A stretch of DNA of 34,912 nucleotides, taken from the NCBI GenBank assembly GCA_947472115.1, contig CANIZU010000003.1, positions 1-34,912 on the forward strand. Reading direction: 5' to 3'. The notes under the pieces are model-generated. The model saw only the letters and a program-made list of their open reading frames with translations. It had not been told where the DNA came from and searched no databases. This document shows positions 15,289 through 33,776 of the stretch, piece after piece. Position 1 is the stretch's first letter. The number at the start of each line of letters is the position of its first letter. A program made the translations under genes and the position numbers. Source of the stretch: Flavobacteriales bacterium. GTDB taxonomy: Bacteria > Bacteroidota > Bacteroidia > NS11-12g > UBA955.

Positions 15289-17616
15289 TTACTTTACAAA
15301 CTTTCCCGACATTTGGGTGATGCCTTGAAGATCTTCAATTTTTATTATGTATACCCCTGATGTAAAGTCTGAAATGTCTATTTTTTCTTTTTCAATCGTC
15401 AATTTTTTATTATACATGATTTGACCATTGCAGTTATATATCGAAATCATATCAGCGCTTGGATTTTTGATGTTTGATACAACGAGCTGTTGATCCCCAT
15501 TTACAAAATAAACCCACCCTTGATTCAATTGCTGCTTGGGAATATTGGCGTATTGGTCAATAATTTTCAATGTCTCAAACGCATCCACTTTGCCATAACC
15601 GCTATTTCCATTAGAATCGTTCGTGGTGAATTGGTCCTTTCTGGCAGTAAGTCGCCATAGATTTCTGATTTCTAACGGTGTAAGCCATTCGTTGGCTTGT
15701 AAATAAAGCGCTACGATTCCAGTTGTATGAGGCGCGGCCATCGACGTTCCTGAAAACATCGCCCAGTAAACATCGTTTCCATTGTACTGCGTTTTGTACA
15801 TCAATTCATTGTTCAACCAACCTGGAACCTGTCTGCGATGCAATGCTGATGTTATACTTTGGCCAGGGGCAATAATATCGGGCTTGATTCTACCATTTGG
15901 GTGTGTCAAACTCTTTGGCATAGGTCCTCTACTACTAAATCCAGCAATATCCCCTACTATATTCCACGGCTGATTAAAGTACTCGCCTTTATAATTAGTC
16001 CATTCGTTTCTGTTTATATAAGCCCCAGCTGTCAACGTATGCGTTCCTGATCCCCCGTTTTCCCCTACCGATCCTTCCGGAGTACCCTCTATGAATTTCT
16101 TACCAAAACTCTGAGCTTTATGACCTTTCCAAAAATGACCTGATGTCCAGCGGTATGCTTGTCCAGAATTCCAAGCATTGAATTCCCCGCTGCTAGTCAC
16201 ACCCAATCTGATATAGCCATTGTAAGGCCTATTGTGTTCTGCAATCACCAAGAAATTGGACTTTCCGTTGAATGGATAGTTCTGCTCCGTGATGACAATA
16301 CTGAGCGTGTCTTTTCCTTTGACATAAATCGATTTGTAAGCTCCACAATTCACACAATCACCTGCCAAATTCCAAGGAGTGCTGATAATTGTATTGCCAA
16401 AAGTATCGACCAGGTTTAGCTGAATTTTTAACTTATCACCGGTGCCATTGGCAATCCCGCCCCAAATATCCATGTAAATATTTTCATGGGGATAGTCTTT
16501 ACGATTGTTATCAACCGCCAATGTGTATGCTGTATCGCCATTCAAAGTTTGATGCACATGCATTTGATTTCTACCATCATTGCCAGCAGCACCTACTATG
16601 ATTCTACCTGGCCCAGTAATCGCTTTCACGGATCGATCGAAAAGTGAAGTGCCATCATGAGGGCCAGTATGCATTCCCCAGCTCAAATTGCAAACACTAG
16701 GCTTGTTATGAATTTCGGCGTATTTAAAGACATAATTATATCCGTCAATGATGGTTGGGTTTGCGACAACATAATCGCCCAAACCACTTCCCCCGAGAGT
16801 ATCATTGGCATATTTAATTCCTACCATCACGATATCTGATTGTGGCGCCATTCCCCGATAACTCAAATTGGGAGAACCCAACCCAGAACCAGCGGCGATG
16901 CCAGCAACATGAGTGCCGTGTGCCCCATCATCGTCGACGGCTGAAGCAATGCTCAATGAATCTGAATACTCAGTACCGTAGCTAAATAATGAAGGTGCAC
17001 TCCCAGACTTCTGTTGATTCCAAAACCGTTGAATTCTATACGTTTTTCCGTCGGGGCTATAAAAAGTAGGATGATCTGTCTGAAAACCGATGTCAACGAT
17101 CCCAACAACAACACCATTTCCAGTATAGTTCTGTGACAAACCATTGGTGATGCCATCTTCGGCTTTGTCGACCCTGCTATGAATCCTAGCAGTATCGTTT
17201 AACGGTTTGGGGCTATTTAATTTTGATGAGACGTCTAAATAAATCAATCCAGGATGCTCGATGATTTGATTCCAACTTTCGGAGGTGAATACAAGATGAG
17301 CAATCCGATAATTCGCGTTTTCTGGATCGATGAAACTACTTTTTATCAAATCAGCATTATCAGCGATAAAAGATTCTCTAACAAGGACTTGGGCGTGATA
17401 TGATCCGTCAAATTTGGGAATTAATTGATTTCTCAACTCGGGATTGGTGAATATTTGTGCGGTTGGACTCAGGATTTGATTGAGTCGAGATGTGGGAACT
17501 GTCAACATCGAGTTTACTAAAGAAATTTCTCTATTACGCTGATTAGATTCAGATTGGGCTGTCACTTGAACAATTGTGCCTACATTTAAAACAATGAGTA
17601 GAAATTTCAGCTTCAT
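15289..17616 (-). CDS. Secreted S8 (subtilisin-like) serine protease with C-terminal T9SS sorting domain
   Basis: Catalytic D in GVVVGIVDIGFQTDHP, H in DDDGAHGTHVAGIAAG, S in FSGTSMAAPHTTGIVALY; C-terminus ISIYNCNGQIMYNKKLTIEKEKIDISDFTSGVYIIKIEDLQGITQMSGKFVK is T9SS type A-like. The ORF-track start at 17631 is a TTG; signal peptide MKLKFLLIVLNVGTIVQVTAQ favours ATG 17616 (ATG 17625 is an alternative). Confidence 0.92.
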   Translation of the reverse strand: MKLKFLLIVLNVGTIVQVTAQSESNQRNREISLVNSMLTVPTSRLNQILSPTAQIFTNPELRNQLIPKFDGSYHAQVLVRESFIADNADLIKSSFIDPENANYRIAHLVFTSESWNQIIEHPGLIYLDVSSKLNSPKPLNDTARIHSRVDKAEDGITNGLSQNYTGNGVVVGIVDIGFQTDHPTFYSPDGKTYRIQRFWNQQKSGSAPSLFSYGTEYSDSLSIASAVDDDGAHGTHVAGIAAGSGLGSPNLSYRGMAPQSDIVMVGIKYANDTLGGSGLGDYVVANPTIIDGYNYVFKYAEIHNKPSVCNLSWGMHTGPHDGTSLFDRSVKAITGPGRIIVGAAGNDGRNQMHVHQTLNGDTAYTLAVDNNRKDYPHENIYMDIWGGIANGTGDKLKIQLNLVDTFGNTIISTPWNLAGDCVNCGAYKSIYVKGKDTLSIVITEQNYPFNGKSNFLVIAEHNRPYNGYIRLGVTSSGEFNAWNSGQAYRWTSGHFWKGHKAQSFGKKFIEGTPEGSVGENGGSGTHTLTAGAYINRNEWTNYKGEYFNQPWNIVGDIAGFSSRGPMPKSLTHPNGRIKPDIIAPGQSITSALHRRQVPGWLNNELMYKTQYNGNDVYWAMFSGTSMAAPHTTGIVALYLQANEWLTPLEIRNLWRLTARKDQFTTNDSNGNSGYGKVDAFETLKIIDQYANIPKQQLNQGWVYFVNGDQQLVVSNIKNPSADMISIYNCNGQIMYNKKLTIEKEKIDISDFTSGVYIIKIEDLQGITQMSGKFVK

Positions 17617-17628
17617 TTTCTGCATAAA

Positions 17629-17636
17629 CAAAGGTA
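17629..17636 (-). promoter_or_regulatory. Bacteroidota -7 element TACCTTTG for the S8 protease
   Basis: Exact TAnnTTTG on the reverse strand, 12 nt before ATG 17616. Confidence 0.45.
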
Positions 17637-20005: not shown

Positions 20006-21232
20006 TTATTTAACAATTTCGTGAATAGAAAAGTTGATGATTTGTAATGCCTCATCAATTTGGTTGGCATTAATCGTTAGAGGAGGTGCGAATCGAATGG
20101 TGTGCGTATGTGTTTGTTTGGCCAGTAATCCATTTGATTTCAAAACGATACATACATCATATGCGGTTTTTCCATTGCCAAACGGATTAATATCGATCGC
20201 ATTTAATAAGCCTTTTCCTCTTACGCTCTTTACGATGGGAGACTTAATTTCTTTGAGTCCTTTTCTGAAACGATCACCCATTTCCGAGGCGTTTCGTGGC
20301 AAAGATTCTTCCACAAGAACTTCCAAAGCGGCTTTAGCGACAGCACAGGCTAGCGGATTTCCACCAAAAGTAGAGCCATGTTGACCTGGGTGCAATACGC
20401 CCATGATCTCATTTGAGGCCAAAACGGCACTTACGGGAAAAACTCCACCGCCTAAGGCCTTACCCAAGATTAAAATATCGGGCTTCACGTTTGCGTGATC
20501 ACAACAAAGCATAGCTCCGGTCCTACCCAATCCTGTTTGTACTTCATCTGCTATCCAAAGCACATTGTATTTGGTACAGAGCATTCTAACTTGTTTTAAG
20601 TAGTCCTCGCTTGGCATAATCACCCCGGCTTCTCCCTGAATGGGTTCTACCATAAATGCGGCGACATTGGTGTCTTGGAATGCGGCTTCTAAAGACATTA
20701 TGTTATTGTATTCTACAATTTCAAATCCTGGAACGAAAGGTCCAAAATCTGAATAGCTATCCGCATCTTGTGATGTTGAAATGGCGGCGATGGTTCTTCC
20801 CCAAAAATTCCCTGATGCAAAAATTACTTTGGCTTGATTTGTTGGAATACCCTTTACCGTATAACCCCACTTTCTCGCCAGCTTAACGGCAGTTTCCCCC
20901 CCTTCTACGCCTGTATTCATTGGTAATACGCGATCATAACCCAAGAGATTTGTAATGTATTGTTCAAAAGGTCCGAGCTGGTCGTTATGAAATGCCCTAC
21001 TTGTAAGAGTTAATTTCTTGCTTTGGACATTTAGGGCTTCGATGATTTTGGGATGACAATGTCCTTGATTGACAGCGGAATAGGCCGACAAGAAATCGAA
21101 GTACCGATTATTATCTACATCCCAAACGAAGATGCCTTCACCTCTATTCAGTACTACTGGTAATGGATGATAATTGTGTGCTCCGTATTTATCCTCAAGG
21201 GCAATGAAATCAGCGCTTTTATGGGTTCCCAT
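20006..21232 (-). CDS. rocD: Ornithine--oxo-acid transaminase
   Basis: 408 aa; [74 protein letters not shown] lysine in [29 protein letters not shown]. Confidence 0.95.
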
Positions 21233-21291
21233 ATTACGAAGGTAGGTAAGAAAAATGATTTGTCTTTGCTATAAAACAATTGTATATTCGG

Positions 21292-24200
21292 ATGTTTGTG
21301 AGGTCTAGGGTGTTAACATATAAGCGACAATTAAAGTCTTGTTTGGTCAAGATTTTATTCAGTATGGTGGTTTTTATTTTCTCTCATAGTTCAGGTTATT
21401 CCAAGTCTCATTCGATTGAATTGAGTTATGGTCGAATTCATTTAAACTTTATCTCATATGATTCCTCTGTTTATCGCAATAAACCTTTTGTTGATTCCAT
21501 TTTTAGAATTGCCGAGATAAATTTTCAAGACTTGGAGGTTTTGCTGGGATATAAGTCCGGATTGCAATATACAGCTACCATTTACAGCGACATAAATGAC
21601 TATCATAGTGCCCTAAAGCAAAATTCTGCTTGGCTTGAGAGAATTTCTGGAACAGTCCAATATTCTCAAGAATATAATTATCCGATTTATGTGAATTCAT
21701 CTTTTGAGCAAATAAAATCACAGTTTGTTTATACCCTCTCACATTTTGTTTTCCATGAATTTTTATTGGGTATTAGTGTGCGTCAAAAACTAAGTCAAAC
21801 CGGCTTTCATACAATGCCCAATTGGTTTTTGCAAGGTCTAGGATCCTATTTGGCCGCTGGTTGGAATGCGAATTCCGCAGATGAATATTCATTTTATGAA
21901 AGCAAAGGTGGTTTCAAGTCTCCAAACCAGATTGTTCCAATGGGAGCTCAAGTATACGGTAAGAAGATTTGGCGTGATTTATTCCAAACCTATGGGAAAT
22001 CAGTTGTTTCAACGATGATGTTCGTACTTAAATACACCGGAAATGCTGAATCCGCCATTGAGTATGTAACGGGAAAATCATTTAATATTTGGAATAATGA
22101 GCGAATTATGGGTCAACAACATTCCTTGGAGACATCCACTACAACCGAAATTGATTTGCCTTTGAAGTATCGTACAATCCCAATTAGTAAGATCACAAAG
22201 CACAATGATAACCTAGTAATTCATTGGTTTAGCCCAGGATTGGTTAAAATATCTCTATATAATTCCATATCGCACAAAGTTGTTGATTTGGTGAATTATG
22301 AATACCCTGTATTATTTAATGAGTTAGACTTTCAGCCGTTAAAATTGGTTGGATTCTTGAGCGATCAGAATTGTTTGCCCAATCCAGTCTATGCTGCAAC
22401 TACACTAATCTCTATAGAGTTAATGCTAGACCACAAACGAACATTAGTGTTTATCGATAGTTTGGGAAAAATACTTCAATGTGTGGATTTGGGTCGGGAG
22501 AAAATATATCCCCTAAATTCTTCACTAACGATTGATTACAAGAGTAAACTGTCAGAACATAATCATCAGAAAATGATCAACCTAACCCATAGTTACACTG
22601 CGGTTGGACATCAAATGGGTGAGAATAATATGATTAAAACTCAGTTTTTTTTTGGTGAAGATTTTTCAACTACGTTCCACAAAACTGGTATTACATTAAA
22701 ACAGTTTCTGAATCAAGGATTTGCTCATTTTTATTACGTTCATCGTCCATCGAGTGTGAATGACCCAATTCCATCAAAAGTAGTGAACGTCGAAAAATTG
22801 CCAACGGAACGCCTCGATTTTGCAAATGAGCCGAAAGATTCAATTTATTACGCAATTGACCTTCAAAAAATCGAAAAAGATCGTTGGGTAATGTTGTTTA
22901 ATCAATTGGATGGCGCGGTTACAAAGACACTTCGGGCTGATACTTTGCTGGAAAAACCTATCGTTCGTGGATTAGTTATTGAAGGACAAGGCCAGTTAAG
23001 TTATGTCCAAAGCGAGGGCGAGGTTTGGCGATTGCGATTTTATCATTTCAAGGACAATTCTGATTATCGTTGGCAATCGGAAGTGAAATATAGTTTTTAT
23101 TCTCAATCACGGGTGGATGGAATGGATAACATTATTGAATCGAGCTTTGGCAGCTCGTTAACCTCAGTGCGTACCTTGGACCCTGCTAAGGAATCTTTGC
23201 GTGAATTAGAATTGCTGGCCAAAAACGATGGTATTGGTAATCTTAATAAATTGGCATCGCCATTGAAAAGACTAATGAAATCTGAGGATATTGACACCAC
23301 TATTAGCACTTGGGAATATTTGGTAGCATTTCCCAAAAGGAATTGGCATTCAGCACTCGAAAATGAAAAATTTAATCATTACAGCGGAAAATATGATAGT
23401 TCAGTCGCAAGAAATACTTTTTATTTAAGTCATGGCGGATTATTTTTTGGCAATGGTGATTATTCTCAATTATCGTATTTAAATGAGATTAGCCCCCATT
23501 TGCTTTACAATCAGCCATTTACTCCAGAAATGCGTTTTTATTTAATGGATAAAAATCACAGTTACCGCTTATCGTTTGGCGTCCTATCAAATATCGCCAT
23601 GAATCGATTGGGGCTGCGATTGAATCAATCATTTAATTGGGGACGATATCAAATAGATCAGCAATTGCTTCTGCGCAATCGAACATTTAATATAAATGAG
23701 ATGGCACTGAAGAAAAACGCGACAAATTTTTTCAGTGTATTGATACGAAGAAATTGGGTTTCAAATTTCACACTGTCGTCTGGAGTTCAAGTTACAGAAG
23801 ATTCATATTTTGACAAAGTTGTTAATCCTGGATTTACATCGTTCAAAAATTATAAATTTCAAACGGCGGGAATGGTTTTTGGCCTCGACTGGAATAATCG
23901 TCAGAAATCGGTGAGACGGGAATATTCATGGCACATTTTATTGAGTTCTACCATCAAAATCAACCGGATAAATACTGCCAAAATCATACCAAATAGAGTT
24001 AATGTCGATGGTAATAGTAAGGGTAATTCCTACTTGTATCAGATCACCTTAAATATTAATAAACAATTGGTTAGAGGGTTTTACTTAAACTCTATAATGA
24101 TGGCTAATAAATCTGCGGGGAATGTATTGACCTTATTTTGGGTAGGTGGATCTGAAGGTTGGATTTCTAAAGATATTTGGCAAACGGGTATCTCTTCAGA

Positions 24201-24636
24201 ATATTCAAATAGTAAATATCTCTACCGCGCCAATGGCGGATTTGTTCGAGGTTTTTTCTTGGGTGATCGAATTGGTACAGGATCAATATCAATCCAAAAT
24301 GAAATCCAATGGCAGCCAGTTAAGCAATTTGGAAAAAAAATCATCAAGCAGAATTTTTATGAGTCGCTCAGTTTTTATGGATTTTTAGATATTGGAACGG
24401 CTTTTATAGGTAATTCACCCGCCAATCCCACCAATCCGTTTAATACTGTTTTAATTACTACGCCAAACTATTTGATGTCCGTGACTTCAAAGCGCAATCC
24501 TTATTTGATTGGTACAGGTCTAGGAGTTAGTACAAATGTACTTCGAACGCCAATACGCTATGAATTGGCTTTTGGTTTAAAAGAAGGCAAATTGAATACT
24601 CCAATCCAACAAGTTTGTATGTCGTGGTTTTTTTAA
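21292..24636 (+). CDS. Large outer-membrane protein: degenerate peptidase-MA-like N-terminus, middle region of unknown fold, Omp85/BamA-like C-terminal barrel
   Basis: Signal-peptide-like KSCLVKILFSMVVFIFSHSSGYS; N-terminal region patterned like peptidase MA but with HFVFH and WFLQGLGSYLA; C-terminal barrel with VRGF motif (FVRGFFLGDRIGTG) and terminal aromatic MSWFF. The ORF-track start 21280 is TTG; ATG 21292 is the first ATG, true start uncertain. Confidence 0.65.
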   Translation: MFVRSRVLTYKRQLKSCLVKILFSMVVFIFSHSSGYSKSHSIELSYGRIHLNFISYDSSVYRNKPFVDSIFRIAEINFQDLEVLLGYKSGLQYTATIYSDINDYHSALKQNSAWLERISGTVQYSQEYNYPIYVNSSFEQIKSQFVYTLSHFVFHEFLLGISVRQKLSQTGFHTMPNWFLQGLGSYLAAGWNANSADEYSFYESKGGFKSPNQIVPMGAQVYGKKIWRDLFQTYGKSVVSTMMFVLKYTGNAESAIEYVTGKSFNIWNNERIMGQQHSLETSTTTEIDLPLKYRTIPISKITKHNDNLVIHWFSPGLVKISLYNSISHKVVDLVNYEYPVLFNELDFQPLKLVGFLSDQNCLPNPVYAATTLISIELMLDHKRTLVFIDSLGKILQCVDLGREKIYPLNSSLTIDYKSKLSEHNHQKMINLTHSYTAVGHQMGENNMIKTQFFFGEDFSTTFHKTGITLKQFLNQGFAHFYYVHRPSSVNDPIPSKVVNVEKLPTERLDFANEPKDSIYYAIDLQKIEKDRWVMLFNQLDGAVTKTLRADTLLEKPIVRGLVIEGQGQLSYVQSEGEVWRLRFYHFKDNSDYRWQSEVKYSFYSQSRVDGMDNIIESSFGSSLTSVRTLDPAKESLRELELLAKNDGIGNLNKLASPLKRLMKSEDIDTTISTWEYLVAFPKRNWHSALENEKFNHYSGKYDSSVARNTFYLSHGGLFFGNGDYSQLSYLNEISPHLLYNQPFTPEMRFYLMDKNHSYRLSFGVLSNIAMNRLGLRLNQSFNWGRYQIDQQLLLRNRTFNINEMALKKNATNFFSVLIRRNWVSNFTLSSGVQVTEDSYFDKVVNPGFTSFKNYKFQTAGMVFGLDWNNRQKSVRREYSWHILLSSTIKINRINTAKIIPNRVNVDGNSKGNSYLYQITLNINKQLVRGFYLNSIMMANKSAGNVLTLFWVGGSEGWISKDIWQTGISSEYSNSKYLYRANGGFVRGFFLGDRIGTGSISIQNEIQWQPVKQFGKKIIKQNFYESLSFYGFLDIGTAFIGNSPANPTNPFNTVLITTPNYLMSVTSKRNPYLIGTGLGVSTNVLRTPIRYELAFGLKEGKLNTPIQQVCMSWFF

Positions 24637-24704: not shown

Positions 24705-25730
24705 ATGAGTTTTTTCAGTTTTCTAACCCAGGAACTTGCCATCGATTTAGGCACAGCGAACACACTTATCATTCATAAAGACAAGGTGGTCGTTGATGAG
24801 CCTAGTATCATCGCAATTGAACGAAATACAGGCAATGTAATTGCCATTGGCAAAGATGCGATGCAGATGTTTGGCAAGGAAAATGAGGGAATTAAGACAA
24901 TTCGACCTTTGAAGGATGGTGTTATTGCTGATTTCCAAGCGGCGGAGCACATGATTCGGGGGATGATTAAGATGATGAATCAGAAACAGCGTTGGATTTC
25001 ACCTCAGCTGAAAATGGTTATCTGTATCCCATCTGGCATCACTGAAGTAGAGAAAAGAGCGGTAAAGGATAGTGCGGAGCGCAGTGGAGCTAAGGAAGTG
25101 TATTTGATTCACGAACCAATGGCAGCGGCAGTTGGAATTGGAATTGATGTAACCCAGCCTCAAGGCAATATGATTGTAGATATCGGTGGTGGTACCACTG
25201 AAATTGCAATTATTGCATTGGGAGGTATTGTTTGCGACGAGAGTATTCGCGTCGCAGGAGACGAATTCAACCTAGATATTTTGGAATACATGCGCAGAGA
25301 GCACAATTTATTGATTGGCGAGCGTACTGCGGAGAAAATTAAAATTCATATTGGTTCGGCGTTACAAGAATTGGATACCCCACCTGAGGATTATGCGGTG
25401 TTTGGTAGAGATTTGATGACAGGCATCCCAAAACAAATTATCGTTAGTTACAGTGAAATTGCCAGAGCACTTGATAAGAGTATCATGAAAGTGGAAGAAG
25501 CCGTTTTGCGTGCATTGGAACAATCACCCCCAGAATTGAGTGCAGATATTTTAACCAATGGTATTTGGTTAACAGGCGGAGGCGCTTTATTAAGAGGGCT
25601 GGATAAGCGCATTGCTGCCAAAACGAAATTAAAGGTTCATATTGCTGAAGACCCACTCCGTGCCGTTGTTCGTGGTACAGGTACTGCCTTAAAGAACATC
25701 GGTCGTTTCAAGTTTTTAATGACCGCCTAA
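24705..25730 (+). CDS. mreB: Rod shape-determining protein MreB
   Basis: 341 aa; LAIDLGTANTLIIHKDKVVVDEPSIIAI, HEPMAAAVGIGIDV, MIVDIGGGTTEIAIIALGGIV, LTGGGALLRGLDKRI. Confidence 0.97.
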   Translation: MSFFSFLTQELAIDLGTANTLIIHKDKVVVDEPSIIAIERNTGNVIAIGKDAMQMFGKENEGIKTIRPLKDGVIADFQAAEHMIRGMIKMMNQKQRWISPQLKMVICIPSGITEVEKRAVKDSAERSGAKEVYLIHEPMAAAVGIGIDVTQPQGNMIVDIGGGTTEIAIIALGGIVCDESIRVAGDEFNLDILEYMRREHNLLIGERTAEKIKIHIGSALQELDTPPEDYAVFGRDLMTGIPKQIIVSYSEIARALDKSIMKVEEAVLRALEQSPPELSADILTNGIWLTGGGALLRGLDKRIAAKTKLKVHIAEDPLRAVVRGTGTALKNIGRFKFLMTA

Positions 25731-25742
25731 TTTTAGTCAATC

Positions 25743-26603
25743 ATGTTGGTGATATTCCGTTGGATACGGAATCAAGCATACCCCCTACTCTATGTTTTAC
25801 TGCTGTTAAGTGCGGTGACTCAGATTTTTAGGTATCATTTTTACCAGCATAGTATTTATTTTGGGCATGCTCTGGGCATTCATCGAAGTATGGATGAATG
25901 GCGATCTGGCATCACGAGTTATTTCAAATTGCGGACAACCAACGAGCAGTTATTAGGCGAGAATAGTATGCTTCGGAATCAATTGAATTGGAATCTGACG
26001 AGCAACTCCCCCAAAGGAGCGATTACTTACACTGATACTTTTACCAAAAGCCTAATAAAGTATGAATATATTCATGCCCGTGTTATTCGAAATTCCGTAA
26101 ACGAGCAGAATAATTTCATTATTTTGGATCGTGGGTACAAGGATGGAATCAAAAAGCACATGTCAGTTATTTGCCCAATGGGGATTGTTGGCGTTGTGGT
26201 AGAATCCGCCGCTCATTACTCCTTGGTTATGTCAGTCCTTAATTCGAAATTCGAAATCACCCCTTATTTCTATAATCTCAAAATTAGTCAAGGTGTAATT
26301 TCGTGGAACGGAGAGGATCCCAACTTTGTGGAACTAGAAGAGGTAAATCGATTTGTGAAATTGAAAAATGGTATGAAACTCTATACCAGTAATTATTCTC
26401 TTCTATTTCCTGCTGGAATTCCCATTGGTACCATTGCAAAATCAGAATCGAATTTAAAATCCAACTTTTATAGTATCAAAGTGAAATTGGCTACGGATTT
26501 TAGTCAATTAGACGTAGTTACAGTGGTGAAAAATATTCATCAAAATGAATTGGACGTACTAAATTCAATCATACCGACAGTAGAAGGAGGCGCAAATGAT
26601 TGA
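25743..26603 (+). CDS. mreC: Rod shape-determining protein MreC
   Basis: 286 aa; N-terminal TM segment, coiled-coil, ARVIRNSVNEQNNFIILDRGYKDGIKKHMSVICPMGIVGVV; follows mreB. Confidence 0.93.
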   Translation: MLVIFRWIRNQAYPLLYVLLLLSAVTQIFRYHFYQHSIYFGHALGIHRSMDEWRSGITSYFKLRTTNEQLLGENSMLRNQLNWNLTSNSPKGAITYTDTFTKSLIKYEYIHARVIRNSVNEQNNFIILDRGYKDGIKKHMSVICPMGIVGVVVESAAHYSLVMSVLNSKFEITPYFYNLKISQGVISWNGEDPNFVELEEVNRFVKLKNGMKLYTSNYSLLFPAGIPIGTIAKSESNLKSNFYSIKVKLATDFSQLDVVTVVKNIHQNELDVLNSIIPTVEGGAND

Positions 26604-27105
26604 GGTAGTGAGATATATTTTGGGCGGGTTGTTTTTTGCCCTCATTCAGACGCTTATTTTCAAGGAGGTAAACATTGCTTGGTGGATTAAGCCGATGCCT
26701 TACGTTTATTTGATGTTAATCCTCCCCCTTTCCACCAATCGATTTGGGGTGCTGATCGGAGCATTCTTCTTTGGCTTAACCATCGATGCCTTTGGCGGAA
26801 GTTTGGGTATGCATACAGCGGCATGTGTAACAACGGTATTTGTAAAAAACTACATCGATTTATATTTTCTGGATGAAAACTCCATGCAATTACAGGGCAT
26901 GAGATATATGCAAATCGATTATAAAGGGTGGCAGTGGTATGGGATTTACTCCTTTTCCATCCTCTTTATACATCATTTAGTGTTTTTCATATTTGATTAT
27001 TTCAGTTGGTCAGCATTGTTTACAATCCTTTTTGTCTCCGTTTGTAGCGCCATCGCGTCACTGTTTTTTATCCAATTATTCCGTTTGCTCTTAGGGCATA
27101 AATAA
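26596..27105 (+). CDS. mreD: Rod shape-determining protein MreD
   Basis: 169 aa polytopic membrane protein between mreC and PBP2; overlaps mreC by 8 nt. Confidence 0.88.
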   Translation: MIEVVRYILGGLFFALIQTLIFKEVNIAWWIKPMPYVYLMLILPLSTNRFGVLIGAFFFGLTIDAFGGSLGMHTAACVTTVFVKNYIDLYFLDENSMQLQGMRYMQIDYKGWQWYGIYSFSILFIHHLVFFIFDYFSWSALFTILFVSVCSAIASLFFIQLFRLLLGHK

Positions 27106-27110
27106 TCATT

Positions 27111-28952
27111 ATGGAAAAAGGCAGTAAACGACAGGTTGTTTATATCGGATTGATTGTATTCGTATTTATCGTCTATTCTCTTAAACTGGCAAGTATTCAG
27201 TTGGGTGAGGTGCCTTACAAAAAGATGGCTATCAACAACGCTTTGAATAAAATTACACTATATCCTTCGCGAAGTAATATTTTTGATCGAAAAGGTAAAT
27301 TGATGGTTTATAGTACACAGATGTACGATTTATCGTCGTTTCCCTATGAAATAATGAAACTAGATACTGGATTGCTATGTTCGATATTAGAGATTGATTT
27401 ACCCACAGTTCGACATTTGATTTTGGATGCTAGGATCCGGGCCAAGAAGCGACAGAAGAATAATTCATTTAATAACAGCGCCCTTTTCTATGCCAATTTG
27501 AGTAACAAGCAATTCACTTTATTACGGGAAAATATTTATAGACTACCTGGTTTTTATATAGAATCTAGGACGGATCGACAGTTTGCAACGACATCAGCGC
27601 CGCATGCTTTAGGGTATTTGGGTGAGGCGGATGAGTCTTTGATTGAATTGGATGGATATAATCAGCCAGGTGATTTGGTTGGTATTACAGGTATAGAGCG
27701 TTTTTATGAAAAGCAAATTCGTGGAATTAAGGGTGTAAAAACAGTTTGGCAGGATCGCACTTATACGGAGCGCGGTGTTGTGAAAGATACCCAATTCAAT
27801 TATCCGTCGACCGCAGGCCCTGATGTGATTAGCTCATTGGATTTTGACTTGCAGGAATATGGTCGTTTGTTGTTGAATGGCAAAAAAGGGAGTATCGTAG
27901 CAATTGAACCCACTACAGGTGAGGTAATAGCATTTATCAACAATCCCGATTACGACCCCAATACGATGGTTGGTAGAGAGAGAGCGAAAACGTTTAAAGC
28001 GCTGTTGAGGGATGATCAAAAGCCTTTGTATAATCGAGCGGTGAAGGGTGTTTATCCTCCAGGGTCCACCTTTAAAACAGTGATGGCCTTGATCGCTATG
28101 CAAGAAGGTGTCCTAACCCCTGAAACTACACATGGTTGTGGTGGCGGTTATCGACTTGGAAGTATTCGTGTGGGGTGCCACGCTCACGGTGGTCCTCTGG
28201 ATTTGCGCGGTTCAATTAGAATATCTTGCAATAGTTATTATTGTCAGGTTTTTAGAGACATTATCGATAATCCTAAATATGGTGATGTTAAAATAGGTTA
28301 TGCTGCACTGGAAAAGCATTTGCGTTCGTTTGGCTTAGGTAGTCAGCTGAATATCGATTTATTGGGCGAATCAAGGGGTAATATTCCTTCCGTGGCTCAA
28401 TTAAATCGAAGACATGGTGATCGATGGAAAAGTAGTACAGTAATTTCCTTAAGTATCGGACAGGGCGAGATATTATTGACACCCTTACAAATTTGTAATG
28501 TTGCCGTTATTATGGCCAACAGAGGATGGTATTACGCGCCTCACTTAGTAAAAAAAATCGATGGATTTAATGATACTTCATGGGATCGCAAGTATCGTAT
28601 CAAGAAGTTTACTTCAATTAACCCAACCTACTTTGCTACTATTATCGATGGCATGAGCGATGTTACCAAACCAGGAGGTACAGCCAATGGTACTGGAATT
28701 AACGACATCGAAATTTGTGCTAAGACTGGCACCGCGCAGAATCCTCATGGTAAAGATCACTCTATTTACATGGCATTTGCACCCAAAGACAATCCCAAAA
28801 TAGCCATCGCGGTGTTGGTTGAAAACGGTGGATTTGGCGCAACTTGGGCTGCACCGATTGCAAACTTGATGATAGAAAAATATCTAAAGCCCGGCGCAGA
28901 AACTTCCAAACCCGCAATGGAAGAACGCATCAAAACCAGTGTAATCAAATAG
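27111..28952 (+). CDS. mrdA: Penicillin-binding protein 2 (peptidoglycan transpeptidase)
   Basis: 613 aa; YPSRSNIFDRKGKLM, SxxK in YPPGSTFKTVMAL, SCN in IRISCNSYYCQV, KTG in EICAKTGTAQNPHG. Confidence 0.95.
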   Translation: MEKGSKRQVVYIGLIVFVFIVYSLKLASIQLGEVPYKKMAINNALNKITLYPSRSNIFDRKGKLMVYSTQMYDLSSFPYEIMKLDTGLLCSILEIDLPTVRHLILDARIRAKKRQKNNSFNNSALFYANLSNKQFTLLRENIYRLPGFYIESRTDRQFATTSAPHALGYLGEADESLIELDGYNQPGDLVGITGIERFYEKQIRGIKGVKTVWQDRTYTERGVVKDTQFNYPSTAGPDVISSLDFDLQEYGRLLLNGKKGSIVAIEPTTGEVIAFINNPDYDPNTMVGRERAKTFKALLRDDQKPLYNRAVKGVYPPGSTFKTVMALIAMQEGVLTPETTHGCGGGYRLGSIRVGCHAHGGPLDLRGSIRISCNSYYCQVFRDIIDNPKYGDVKIGYAALEKHLRSFGLGSQLNIDLLGESRGNIPSVAQLNRRHGDRWKSSTVISLSIGQGEILLTPLQICNVAVIMANRGWYYAPHLVKKIDGFNDTSWDRKYRIKKFTSINPTYFATIIDGMSDVTKPGGTANGTGINDIEICAKTGTAQNPHGKDHSIYMAFAPKDNPKIAIAVLVENGGFGATWAAPIANLMIEKYLKPGAETSKPAMEERIKTSVIK

Positions 28953-28958
28953 TGAACC

Positions 28959-30230
28959 GTGAAATATTCGCCACTAAATAACAATACTCAGGAGAAAATC
29001 GACGGGTTATCGATCTTTCTGTTTATAGTTTTGGTTATTATTGGTTTTTTGAGCATCAGCTCGGCGACATCAGAAGTCAATCAAGAGTTTTATTCCCTAT
29101 CTCCTATCGCAATTAAGCAATTGATTTGGATTGGCGGATCCGTAGTAATCATTTTTACGATTCTCTATTCTAATGTCGTGGTGATTGATTATTTCACCTA
29201 CGGATTCTATGCTTTTGCTATTTTACTGAATATTGCGGTTTTGTTTCTAGGTCGAGAAGTTTCAGGTGCAAAGTCTTGGTTTGGATTTGGCGGAATTGGT
29301 ATTCAACCAAGCGAGTTTGCAAAAGTCGCTACAGCTATGGCACTGGCGAAATATTTAGGAACCTACGGCATTCGTTTCCAAGGAGCCAGAAACATCGCAA
29401 TTTGCTTGTTTATTTTCCTCCTCCCTATGGCGATTATTCTGATTCAGAACGATACGGGTAGCGCCTTGGTATTTTTGTCGTTTTTCCTAGTTTTATACAG
29501 AGAAGGTTTACCTGGATTTATTTTAATATCAGCAGTATGGTTGATGTTTCTAGCCATTTGCAGAATTGTAAGTGAAGCTACTGGAATATCGAGTTATTAC
29601 GGATACGGACTGCTTTTAGGTATCGGAAGCATTATGGTGTTTTTTGCCCGTAAGGATAAAGGTATTAGTACACTGATTACAGTTATTGCCGTGGTGTCTG
29701 CGGCTTTTTATACGATCGTAGGAACCGTATATTCAAGTATTCTTCAACCCTATCAAAGAGATCGCATTGAATTGGTTCTTGGATTAAAATCAGATGACCG
29801 TGGTTTGGGCTTCAATTTACGTCAATCTAAGATTGCCATCGGCGCTGGAGAATTGTGGGGACGTGGCTACTTAAAAGGAACCCAAACGAAAATGGGATTC
29901 GTCCCTGAACAACATACAGATTTTATTTTCGACACAATCGGAGAAGAATGGGGATTTGTGGGCGCAACCGTATTTCTTCTGATATTCTGTGGCTTGCTTA
30001 CGAGAATTGTGATTTTAGCGGAGCGACAATCGACCACATTTGGAAGGGTTTTGGGCTATTCGCTGGCATGTGTCTTGTTCTTCCACCTTTCGATAAATAT
30101 CGGCATGACAATCGGTTTGGTCCCAACAATTGGTATCCCTCTCCCATTTATTTCATTTGGAGGAAGTAGTTTGTGGGCCTTTACCTTGTTTTTATTTACC
30201 TTTTTGAGGGTAGATCAGGTAAGAAAGTAA
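28959..30230 (+). CDS. rodA: Rod shape-determining protein RodA (SEDS glycosyltransferase)
   Basis: 423 aa polytopic; VSGAKSWFGFGGIGIQPSEFAKVATAMALAKYL, LIQNDTGSALVFLSFF, GFVPEQHTDFIFDTIGEEWGFVGA, GIPLPFISFGGSSLW. Confidence 0.96.
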   Translation: MKYSPLNNNTQEKIDGLSIFLFIVLVIIGFLSISSATSEVNQEFYSLSPIAIKQLIWIGGSVVIIFTILYSNVVVIDYFTYGFYAFAILLNIAVLFLGREVSGAKSWFGFGGIGIQPSEFAKVATAMALAKYLGTYGIRFQGARNIAICLFIFLLPMAIILIQNDTGSALVFLSFFLVLYREGLPGFILISAVWLMFLAICRIVSEATGISSYYGYGLLLGIGSIMVFFARKDKGISTLITVIAVVSAAFYTIVGTVYSSILQPYQRDRIELVLGLKSDDRGLGFNLRQSKIAIGAGELWGRGYLKGTQTKMGFVPEQHTDFIFDTIGEEWGFVGATVFLLIFCGLLTRIVILAERQSTTFGRVLGYSLACVLFFHLSINIGMTIGLVPTIGIPLPFISFGGSSLWAFTLFLFTFLRVDQVRK

Positions 30231-30263: not shown

Positions 30264-33200
30264 ATGAATAAGTTTCACTGGTGTGGCTTTTCGCTATTGG
30301 GTATAATGGCGATGTCTATGATGGTTTCCTGTGGGAAATCTTCAGATGAAAATGTAGATAAGCTTTTCGAAAAAATGGAATCTGATGTCACAGGCATTGA
30401 TTTCGTGAATATGGTGCCTGAAAACGACACGTTGAATCAGTTTATTTACCATTACTTATATAATGGTAGCGGCGTTGCCATTGGCGATATCAATAACGAT
30501 GGTCTAAACGACTTGTATTTTACTGGGAATGAACAATCATCTCGCTTGTATTTAAACAAAGGAGATTTCAAGTTTGAAGACATCACAGAGAAAAGTGGTA
30601 CCGGCACAAAGCAATGGATTAGCGGTGTCACGATGGTGGATGTCAACAATGATGGCTGGCTAGATATTTACGCTTGCTCATCGGGGCCATTAAAAGGCAA
30701 AGACTCGAAACGAAATCGACTGTTTTTGAATCAAAAAAATGAGACTTTTAAAGAGGTAAGTGCCCAATGGGGTGTGGATGATGCAGGAAATGCAACGTGT
30801 GCCACTTTCTTTGATTATGATAACGATGGGGATTTAGATTTTTACTTAGGTAATCATGCCGATCAGTTCTTTTCCAATATCAATACGCCATTCACGCGTA
30901 CTTTGAACATGACGGAATCAAGTCAGCAGCATTTTTATCGCAACGACGGAAACAAATTTACGGATGTCTCAAATAAAGCAGGTGTGGTAACCATGGGTTA
31001 TTGCTTGAGCGCAGCCGCGGCAGACTACAACAATGATGGCTTCATGGACTTGTATGTTTGTAATGATTATCATGTACCCGATTGCTATTATATCAACAAT
31101 GGAGATGGGACTTTTACCGACAAGTTTGATGAGTTCTTTAAACATTCTAGCACCAATTCTATGGGCTCGGATGTGGCTGATGTTAATAATGATGGCTGGA
31201 GTGATTTGATCACCGTTGATATGCTTTCTGAAAGTCCTAGACGCTATATGAGCCTAATGGGACCAAAGGATTATGATTATACAATGGTCGGCATCAAAAA
31301 CGGGTACAAGCACCAGTACATGAAAAACAACTTGCAAATGAATTTGGGTAATGGTCATTTTTCAGACCTCTCCTACTTATATGGAGTTGCTAAGTCTGAT
31401 TGGAGTTGGAGTCCATTATTATCGGATTTCAACGATGATGGTTTCGTTGATCTGTTTATTTCTAATGGATATTACAGAGATGTAACCAATTTGGATTTCA
31501 TTTTATATCAGTCACGATATGAACAGCAGCAAAAACAAGGACTAAATCATGAGCAATTGCTAAAAAAACTGCCATTTGAAAAGATTCAGAACTTCTTTTT
31601 TCTCAACAACGCAGGTCAAGGCTTTACCAATCGATCTTCTGATGTAGGATTAGACGATTTAAGTTCTAGTACGGGTTCTGCCATCGGCGATCTAGATGGC
31701 GATGGTCGCTTTGATCTAGTTGTATGTAACCAAGGCGAAAAACCCTTCATCTATAAGAATGTGAATACAAGTAACAATTATTTGAATGTCCGATGCCGAG
31801 GTGAAAAAAATCAAAACCATTTTGGGGTTGGCTGTCAACTAATTGTTGAGGATAGCGCGGGCAAAATCCGCAAATTCGAAATCCAACCCAGCAAAGGGTA
31901 CCAAAGTTCATCGGAACACATGGTACATATCGGAATGGGCAATCAATCTTCATTGCAAAAACTTACCATTGTTTGGCCCAATGGTAGCTCTCAAGTCGTA
32001 ACAGATATCAAAGCGAATCAAACGTTGACAGTAAAATCAACTGATGCCACAAGTAAGTTTAATTGGGTAAATTATAGTAATCACGACAAATCACTCTATT
32101 TCAGAGATAATGCGAGTGATTGGAGTTTCAATTTCGTTCATAAAGAACAAGAAAACCCTGATTTCAAGCGTGAACCCCTACTACCTCATAGGTATACAAC
32201 CTTGGGTCCTGGAATGGCTTCTGCCGATGTTAATGGCGATGGCACAATAGATGTTTTTATTGGCGCTGCAAGAGAGAGCAGTGGATCCACCTTGATGCTG
32301 CAAGAAAATTCAGCGGGTGGCAAGTTGAGTCATGCAAAATCTCAGCCATGGAGGGCGTTAGATGTAGATGTGATGGGTGCTGTGTTTTTTGATGCCGATG
32401 GCGACAATGACCAGGATTTGTATGTTGCAGTGGGTGGATCTGAGTTCAGTTGGCCATCGAATAAATATGAACATAAACTATACACTAACGATGGCAAAGG
32501 AAATTTCACCGAATCCAAAGGTGCACTTCCTGGTGTGGTTAGTAGCGCAAGTTCCGTTACATCATCGGATTTTGATGGTGATGGCGATTTAGATCTTTTC
32601 GTAGCCGGTAGAATAATGCCAGGTAACTGGCCAGCATTGGGTGTGCGAAGCTATTTACTTCAAAATAACGGAGGAAAATTCAAAGATGTTACAACCGCGT
32701 TAGCGCCTGATTTAGAAAATGCGGGAATGATTTGTTCAGCCGTTTTCTCAGACTATAATGGCGATGGTAGACCAGATCTTGTTTTGGCCGGAGAATGGAT
32801 GCCATTGATCTTTATGGAGAATACAGGCGGGAAATTCATCAATAAGACCGGGGATGTAGGTGATATGTCGTTGTCTGGTTGGATGAATAGTATTTTACCT
32901 GTTGACATCGATAACGACGGTGATATGGATTATATCGTAGGTAACAAAGGAAACAATAGCTTTATTCAGGCAAAGTCCGGCAGCCCTACCAAAGTGTATT
33001 GGGCAGATTTTGATGGCAATGGAAGTCAGGACGTGACGATGAGTTATTCTTATAATGGCGCCGACTACCCTATCTTCACGATGGATGAAATGGGAAAGGC
33101 ATATCCATTTTTCATCAATAAGAAATTCACTACCTATGGCGATTTTGCAGGCAAAACGATGGATGAAATTTTTGGTGCCGAAGTGCTAAAACAGAACCAA

Positions 33201-33776
33201 TTAACTGTCAATTACTTCTCGAGTTTTGTCGCCATAAATAACGGAGGAAAATTCAGTATGGTCGAACTTCCTATGTGGGCGCAGGCTGGTCCTTTGTTTG
33301 GAATGACGGCTTTTGATGTGGACGGGAATGGATTTGATGATATCATATGCACAGGAAACAATTACAATACGCGAGTACCTCATGGCAGAGACGATGCAAT
33401 TCCATCCTTTGTGTTGATGAATAATGGTGGTAGTTTTGAGTATAAATCCGGAGCCCAATTGGGACTGTATAACCAAGGCGATGGCAAATCCTTAATCTCA
33501 TTACCTACCAAGGGAAAAGCGGTTAGATTTATGATCGCCAATAACAATGGTCCCGCCAAAGGTTTTGAACTTCAAGGATCTGGCAAAACGGCAGCCATTG
33601 AATTCGTAAAAGCACCTTCCCTCGCGTCTTATGCTAAAGTTACTGTAAACGGTTCTATCAAGATGGTAAACCTCAATCAAGGACAAGGATATTTATCATC
33701 CCAAGCTCCCGGAGTCTATAAAACCAAAGGGGTTTCGAAGATTGAATTCTATAACTCTAATGGCAAACGAATCTAA
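30264..33776 (+). CDS. VCBS/FG-GAP repeat lipoprotein with ASPIC/UnbV domain
   Basis: 1170 aa; lipobox MAMSMMVSCGK; about 14 DxDxDGxxD-type calcium-binding repeat motifs; ASPIC/UnbV-like NYLNVRCRGEKNQNHFGVGCQLIVEDSAGKIRKFEIQPSKGYQSSSEHMVHIGMGNQSSLQKLTIVWPNGSSQVV. Confidence 0.93.
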   Translation: MNKFHWCGFSLLGIMAMSMMVSCGKSSDENVDKLFEKMESDVTGIDFVNMVPENDTLNQFIYHYLYNGSGVAIGDINNDGLNDLYFTGNEQSSRLYLNKGDFKFEDITEKSGTGTKQWISGVTMVDVNNDGWLDIYACSSGPLKGKDSKRNRLFLNQKNETFKEVSAQWGVDDAGNATCATFFDYDNDGDLDFYLGNHADQFFSNINTPFTRTLNMTESSQQHFYRNDGNKFTDVSNKAGVVTMGYCLSAAAADYNNDGFMDLYVCNDYHVPDCYYINNGDGTFTDKFDEFFKHSSTNSMGSDVADVNNDGWSDLITVDMLSESPRRYMSLMGPKDYDYTMVGIKNGYKHQYMKNNLQMNLGNGHFSDLSYLYGVAKSDWSWSPLLSDFNDDGFVDLFISNGYYRDVTNLDFILYQSRYEQQQKQGLNHEQLLKKLPFEKIQNFFFLNNAGQGFTNRSSDVGLDDLSSSTGSAIGDLDGDGRFDLVVCNQGEKPFIYKNVNTSNNYLNVRCRGEKNQNHFGVGCQLIVEDSAGKIRKFEIQPSKGYQSSSEHMVHIGMGNQSSLQKLTIVWPNGSSQVVTDIKANQTLTVKSTDATSKFNWVNYSNHDKSLYFRDNASDWSFNFVHKEQENPDFKREPLLPHRYTTLGPGMASADVNGDGTIDVFIGAARESSGSTLMLQENSAGGKLSHAKSQPWRALDVDVMGAVFFDADGDNDQDLYVAVGGSEFSWPSNKYEHKLYTNDGKGNFTESKGALPGVVSSASSVTSSDFDGDGDLDLFVAGRIMPGNWPALGVRSYLLQNNGGKFKDVTTALAPDLENAGMICSAVFSDYNGDGRPDLVLAGEWMPLIFMENTGGKFINKTGDVGDMSLSGWMNSILPVDIDNDGDMDYIVGNKGNNSFIQAKSGSPTKVYWADFDGNGSQDVTMSYSYNGADYPIFTMDEMGKAYPFFINKKFTTYGDFAGKTMDEIFGAEVLKQNQLTVNYFSSFVAINNGGKFSMVELPMWAQAGPLFGMTAFDVDGNGFDDIICTGNNYNTRVPHGRDDAIPSFVLMNNGGSFEYKSGAQLGLYNQGDGKSLISLPTKGKAVRFMIANNNGPAKGFELQGSGKTAAIEFVKAPSLASYAKVTVNGSIKMVNLNQGQGYLSSQAPGVYKTKGVSKIEFYNSNGKRI

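Follow-up and report, generated by a model that had tools for sequence, protein, structure and literature searches.

Barrels of the Omp85 superfamily assemble or move polypeptides, and the machinery that assembles the envelope of the Bacteroidota has been described only recently. The closest named group to the protein considered here is WD40-Omp85, of unknown function, for which the main text of Heinz and Lithgow (2014, PMC4104836) describes a TolB-like propeller and an Omp85 barrel, with no POTRA domain reported there. The same text names an Omp85 subfamily 'Metallo', which it calls a metalloprotease and yet defines by PF00149. In Pfam, PF00149 is Metallophos. We take it to be a phosphoesterase family, unrelated to the HExxH peptidases. 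Our literature search found no paper in which Omp85 is combined with Peptidase MA or PD40, and no published functional study of, or experiment on, the family described below; a term search of the pseudopeptidase review PMC11266112 found neither 'outer membrane' nor 'gluzincin'.

The gene lies in a window of 34,912 nucleotides, i.e. the whole stretch of DNA that was analysed (contig CANIZU010000003.1, positions 1 to 34,912 of the forward strand, from the Flavobacteriales bacterium assembly GCA_947472115.1). It is an open frame at 21280-24636 (+) of 1118 codons, with a TTG start and no internal stop; an alternative in-frame start, ATG at 21292, is found just ahead of a basic, hydrophobic N-terminus, a probable signal peptide or N-terminal hydrophobic helix (residues 5-42, 21292-21405, +; helix 2-39 in the AlphaFold2 model). 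The frame is that given in an earlier note made from the nucleotide sequence alone, and LSHFVFHEF, PNWFLQGLGSYLA, VRGF and the terminal Phe all lie where that note had placed them. Since the 1118-aa protein has no sequence match in Pfam, NCBIfam or the PDB, its identification rests wholly on its relatives and on structure prediction, the full-length AlphaFold2 model being of moderate confidence (pLDDT 73.5, pTM 0.71). The layout, a pseudo-gluzincin domain followed by a (diverged) propeller and an Omp85 barrel, is found again in orthologues from 54 of the 58 related genomes of the window's genus, family and order and is therefore not due to chance; usually there is one copy per genome, of about 970-1140 aa when complete. 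The nearest orthologues come from metagenome-assembled genomes of freshwater Flavobacteriales/Bacteroidota (from Baikal and elsewhere), the farther ones from Chitinophagales and Saprospiraceae. Domains recognised in the relatives, together with structure matches, establish the three-part architecture as real, namely a gluzincin-fold N-terminus and a BamA-like barrel, both of which the earlier note had proposed, with a beta-rich middle between them.

The N-terminal region (residues 44-285, 21409-22134, +) is predicted to have the Peptidase MA, or gluzincin, fold. Modelled alone (pLDDT 83.7, pTM 0.81), it matches a range of gluzincins in Foldseek, including the peptidase domain of collagenase H (4ar1), IRAP, ERAP1, tricorn factor F3 and M61, as well as the TFIID entry 7edx_B, which we take to be the pseudo-aminopeptidase TAF2. 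With a best Foldseek E-value of only 2.3e-3 (best probability 1.00; TM 0.40-0.55, i.e. modest), it matters that an independent HHalign comparison matches the N-terminal profile of the window's genus to that of homologues with an intact catalytic motif at 98.2% (E = 5e-14). Pfam recognises Peptidase_MA_2 in 3 of 47 close relatives and in all 38 motif-intact homologues of other classes. The gluzincin fold that the earlier note had read from the residue pattern is thus supported both by the predicted structure and by the profile match to the intact domain.

The catalytic signature of Peptidase MA, HExxH with a downstream Glu ligand, is replaced in this domain by Y151-T-L-S-H155 and Q185. HHalign (genus profile versus motif-intact profile) and a 165-row multiple alignment agree on the register, placing the HExxH position at Y151-T-L-S-H155 (21730-21744, +), where the first His and the catalytic Glu are lost. 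The third zinc ligand, a Glu in the intact form, has become Q185 within P-x-W-F-L-Q-G (residues 180-186, 21817-21837, +), the WFLQG being contained in PNWFLQGLGSYLA at 21823-21855. The earlier note was therefore right that both the catalytic and the ligand glutamate are replaced, WFxEG having become WFLQG, but its HExxH register was off by four residues: HFVFH (residues 155-159, 21742-21756, +), which it had read as the degenerate HExxH, is rejected as the equivalent site, as both alignments place HELVH four residues earlier. H155 corresponds to the second His of HExxH, and HFVFH sits one helical turn further along, with H159 aligned to the Asn, and E160 to the Asp, of a conserved 'ND' of the intact relatives. 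Only a few close species possess both H155 and H159, and the sister pair of loci L090/L091 keeps only the first of them. A motif search of the entire 1118-aa protein found no HExxH elsewhere, and of the refuting cases that the note had named neither arose. Across 69 aligned rows of the class, six residues do not vary: P180, W182, G186, W195, G227 and W231.

The C-terminal part (residues 715-1118, 23422-24633, +), which ends in Phe, is an Omp85-like beta-barrel, as the earlier note had surmised from VRGF and the terminal Phe: in the full-length model it matches many BamA entries (Foldseek probability 1.00, E down to 1.1e-10), and its profile aligns with motif-intact barrels at 98.0% in HHalign. 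The protein thus combines the two features of the Omp85 superfamily, a BamA-like C-terminal barrel and the L6 motif (V/I/L)RG(F/Y), here VRGF (residues 989-992, 24244-24255, +), with R990 and G991 invariant and F992 kept in at least 90% of the 69 rows. The Pfam family Omp85 itself is detected in 15 of 38 homologues of other classes and 1 of 47 close relatives, and is absent from the window protein; POTRA domains gave no Pfam match in the window protein or its relatives. Because the same genome encodes two further Omp85 proteins on other contigs (L285 and L286; one of about 460-490 aa with no obvious N-terminal domain, the other a 791-aa frame), this protein is not its sole Omp85.

The middle region (residues 296-640, 22165-23199, +) stands at the position of a TolB-like beta-propeller and is beta-rich in the model. 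Close relatives match PD40 (10 of 47) and TolB (17 of 47), all 38 motif-intact homologues of other classes match PD40, and the middle profile of the latter aligns at 98-100% in HHalign with those of the rest of the class, of the second family of the order and of most of the window's family. For the window's genus, together with four of its near relatives, the middle scores about 1% or less against the motif-intact and main family profiles, with weak matches to near relatives. The TolB-like propeller that precedes the barrel in WD40-Omp85 is present in the relatives; the window's sub-clade has at its place a region that is beta-rich in the model. The window's own middle has no Pfam, NCBIfam or PDB match and scores 0.1% against the propeller profile, and an assignment from its own residues is accordingly rejected. 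Its position, and its topology in the model, where about six four-stranded groups are seen, make it plausible that the region is a propeller that has decayed or strongly diverged; the decayed propeller proposed in the earlier note holds insofar as the middle of the relatives is homologous to a TolB-like propeller, but the likeness is no longer detected by profiles of the sub-clade. Separately, we observed that species of the genus that share 99-100% identity in MreB and about 96% in PBP2 share only 60-73% in this protein, an unusually fast evolution for a neighbour of the mre operon, concentrated in the middle region.

How widespread are the intact and the dead forms? The family profile was matched in 223 of 248 genomes across the phylum, where the weakest matches may be to the propeller alone, and the N-terminal domain in 284 of 346 genomes of the class, a few of these being a second, motif-intact subfamily. 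All of the 40 homologues from other classes of the phylum keep the motif (H-H-E-L-V-H...P-L-W-F-N-E-G-L-A-E-Y) and, judging by these residues, are presumably active peptidases. In the window's own class, taken to be Bacteroidia, H151 and E152 occur in none of 125 aligned rows (a few of which are one genome present twice, via two collections); the second-His position is His in 11 rows, and position 185 is Glu in 16 and mostly Gln, Asp or others in the rest. The longest frames of 30 further class loci also lack HExxH (30 of 30). These counts reject a loss private to this genome. The earlier note had considered that HFxxH might be fixed in the clade or that relatives might keep HExxH: HFVFH is not fixed, the loss of the motif is class-wide, and HExxH is indeed kept in other classes. 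Among low-scoring class loci, 26 of 30 lack HExxH in the longest frame, and the remaining four, with HELVH (L311, L312, L315 and L316), carry HVLGHELVHAFQYH and belong to the second subfamily, which has the same layout and an intact HVLGHELVHAFQYH/SFQYD motif (also L235-L241 and L249). This subfamily occurs in some genomes of the class (families f3 and f99) that apparently have no dead form, which it might possibly replace there. The HVLGHELVHAFQYH proteins of f3 and of genome G486 were considered as members of the dead clade and rejected, being motif-intact and grouping outside that clade where tested.

A tree built from the propeller and the barrel (57 rows and 685 columns, with the N-terminal domain omitted) and rooted with the second subfamily unites the 42 motif-less rows, without exception, in a single clade with SH-aLRT 100, so that one change is needed, although the search was quick and some branches are long. 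Since the motif is intact in both of the adjoining groups, a loss explains the pattern more simply than a gain. The alignments and the tree thus indicate that the zinc site was lost once, anciently, in the common ancestor of the family within the class.

In the window, mreB, mreC, mreD, PBP2 and rodA follow directly downstream (24705-30230, +; identified by Pfam, mreD by position) after a gap of 68 bp, in an order conserved in relatives. In the window's family, many members have the gene immediately before mreB-mreC-mreD-PBP2-rodA, and most have 35-104 bp between it and mreB. On the other side, a divergent class-III aminotransferase (20006-21232, -; Pfam) is a conserved head-to-head neighbour, a link that reaches through much of the order; in some members the mre genes are about 1.7 kb downstream. 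Beyond the order, the neighbours differ and the mre genes are not adjacent; clustering of neighbourhoods found no consistent functional partner there. The commonest neighbour outside the order, in 55 of 83 loci (L102-L164 and L175-L194), is a divergent upstream hydrolase of the metallo-beta-lactamase fold, named by eye. Two further observations concern the window: rodA is followed by a 1170-aa FG-GAP / ASPIC-UnbV repeat protein (30264-33776), whose position is kept in 26 related loci, and a subtilase that carries a C-terminal sorting domain for type IX secretion (15289-17631, -) is conserved nearby in close relatives.

When considering what a protease domain with no catalytic site might do, its mode of evolution is informative. 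In NG86 comparisons of close species, dN/dS is 0.04-0.14 in the dead domain, 0.15-0.32 in the middle and 0.06-0.21 in the barrel; the dead-domain value is below that of the middle in each of the four pairs that can be compared (one pair, with saturated N-terminal dS, was excluded for this domain), and the most constrained part is always the dead domain or the barrel. The view that the domain is a relict, decaying with no function while selection acts on the barrel alone, could draw on the loss of the catalytic residues and on the further loss of recognisable propeller sequence in the window's sub-clade, but it is rejected as exceedingly improbable on the purifying selection just described, and the six invariant residues across 69 rows and the presence of the domain in most of the 346 class genomes argue against it as well. 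Since dN/dS is low and six residues are invariant throughout the class, the dead domain is not decaying; having long been held under strong selection, it therefore probably binds something rather than cutting it. Hardly more credible is a hydrolase that has kept its metal at a shifted site made of H155 and H159, which are spaced by one helical turn: HFVFH does supply such an i,i+4 pair in this protein and in those of a few close species, but H159 is missing in the sister species and both His in more distant members, and neither a conserved third ligand nor a conserved general base can be seen, residue 185 being Gln.

We therefore turn to binding, and consider it rather probable that we are dealing with an extra Omp85 protein, devoid of POTRA domains, with a propeller-like module and a dead gluzincin domain, the latter binding a polypeptide or some partner as the envelope is assembled. 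The ancestral form would probably have been an outer-membrane-anchored metallopeptidase that captured extended polypeptides in its cleft; when the zinc site was lost in the common ancestor within the class, the cleft would have been retained and its chemistry given up. Most likely, the present form would still use that cleft to capture a polypeptide or a partner, with no cutting, and present it to the barrel, or scaffold it there, during assembly of the envelope. The role would be that of a binding protein, a chaperone or a surface-assembly factor, as the earlier note had suggested. N-terminal domains of Omp85 proteins are normally in the periplasm, and by analogy the soluble part of this protein is most likely periplasmic too. 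This habit of Omp85 proteins, the strong constraint on the dead domain, unlike that of a variable adhesin head, and the mre operon next door, which suggests envelope growth, make it unlikely that the barrel moves its own pseudoprotease and propeller to the outside as an adhesin or receptor, even though the middle evolves fastest, as a surface-exposed part might, and the patatin-Omp85 protein PlpD is described in the text of PMC4104836 as delivering its domain to the surface. The proximity to mreB in most of the window's family could instead mean that the protein is dedicated to linking the MreB elongasome with the assembly of the outer membrane, in which case the dead cleft would bind peptidoglycan or a protein of the elongasome; TolB-type propellers, according to the same text (PMC4104836), act beside peptidoglycan. 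We regard this as quite improbable, as operon position by itself is weak evidence and the mre association is not seen outside the order. A wider scheme, in which an outer-membrane protease became a non-catalytic peptide- or peptidoglycan-binding Omp85 scaffold once at the base of Bacteroidia, and in which that scaffold now ties the assembly of the outer membrane to MreB-directed elongation of the cell wall in the window's family, is likewise doubtful.

Taken together, the binding role in envelope assembly that we favour concerns a conserved, usually single-copy, uncharacterised predicted outer-membrane protein of most sampled genomes of the class, and for this reason the role of an extra Omp85 protein in Bacteroidota is directly testable. 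With this family, the Omp85 superfamily gains a true HExxH-type peptidase domain, and a clean conversion of a protease into a pseudoprotease can be followed along a bacterial class, with intact outgroups at hand for comparison. With the WD40-Omp85 group, as portrayed in the main text of PMC4104836, the family shares an N-terminal TolB-like propeller (here in the relatives), the lack of recognised POTRA domains and a C-terminal barrel; that text mentions only WD40 repeats and no peptidase domain, whereas here the propeller is preceded by a gluzincin domain, intact in other classes and dead in the window's own. The 'Metallo' subfamily of that text likewise joins a barrel to a putative metal-dependent domain, but one defined by PF00149, with no kinship to HExxH peptidases. 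BamA and TamA/TamL have the same barrel fold and the L6 VRGF; they differ in their POTRA domains, and the window protein exists in addition to other Omp85 proteins. No named subunit of the BAM complex of F. johnsoniae, as described, corresponds to it. TolB and BamB propellers are matched by the relatives in sequence (TolB), the likeness being undetectable in the window's sub-clade, but here the propeller is fused between a pseudopeptidase and a barrel. Finally, with the Peptidase MA/M1-type pseudopeptidases, such as TAF2 (PMC11266112), the protein shares a gluzincin fold devoid of catalytic residues, and, unlike them, it is bacterial and fused to an outer-membrane barrel.
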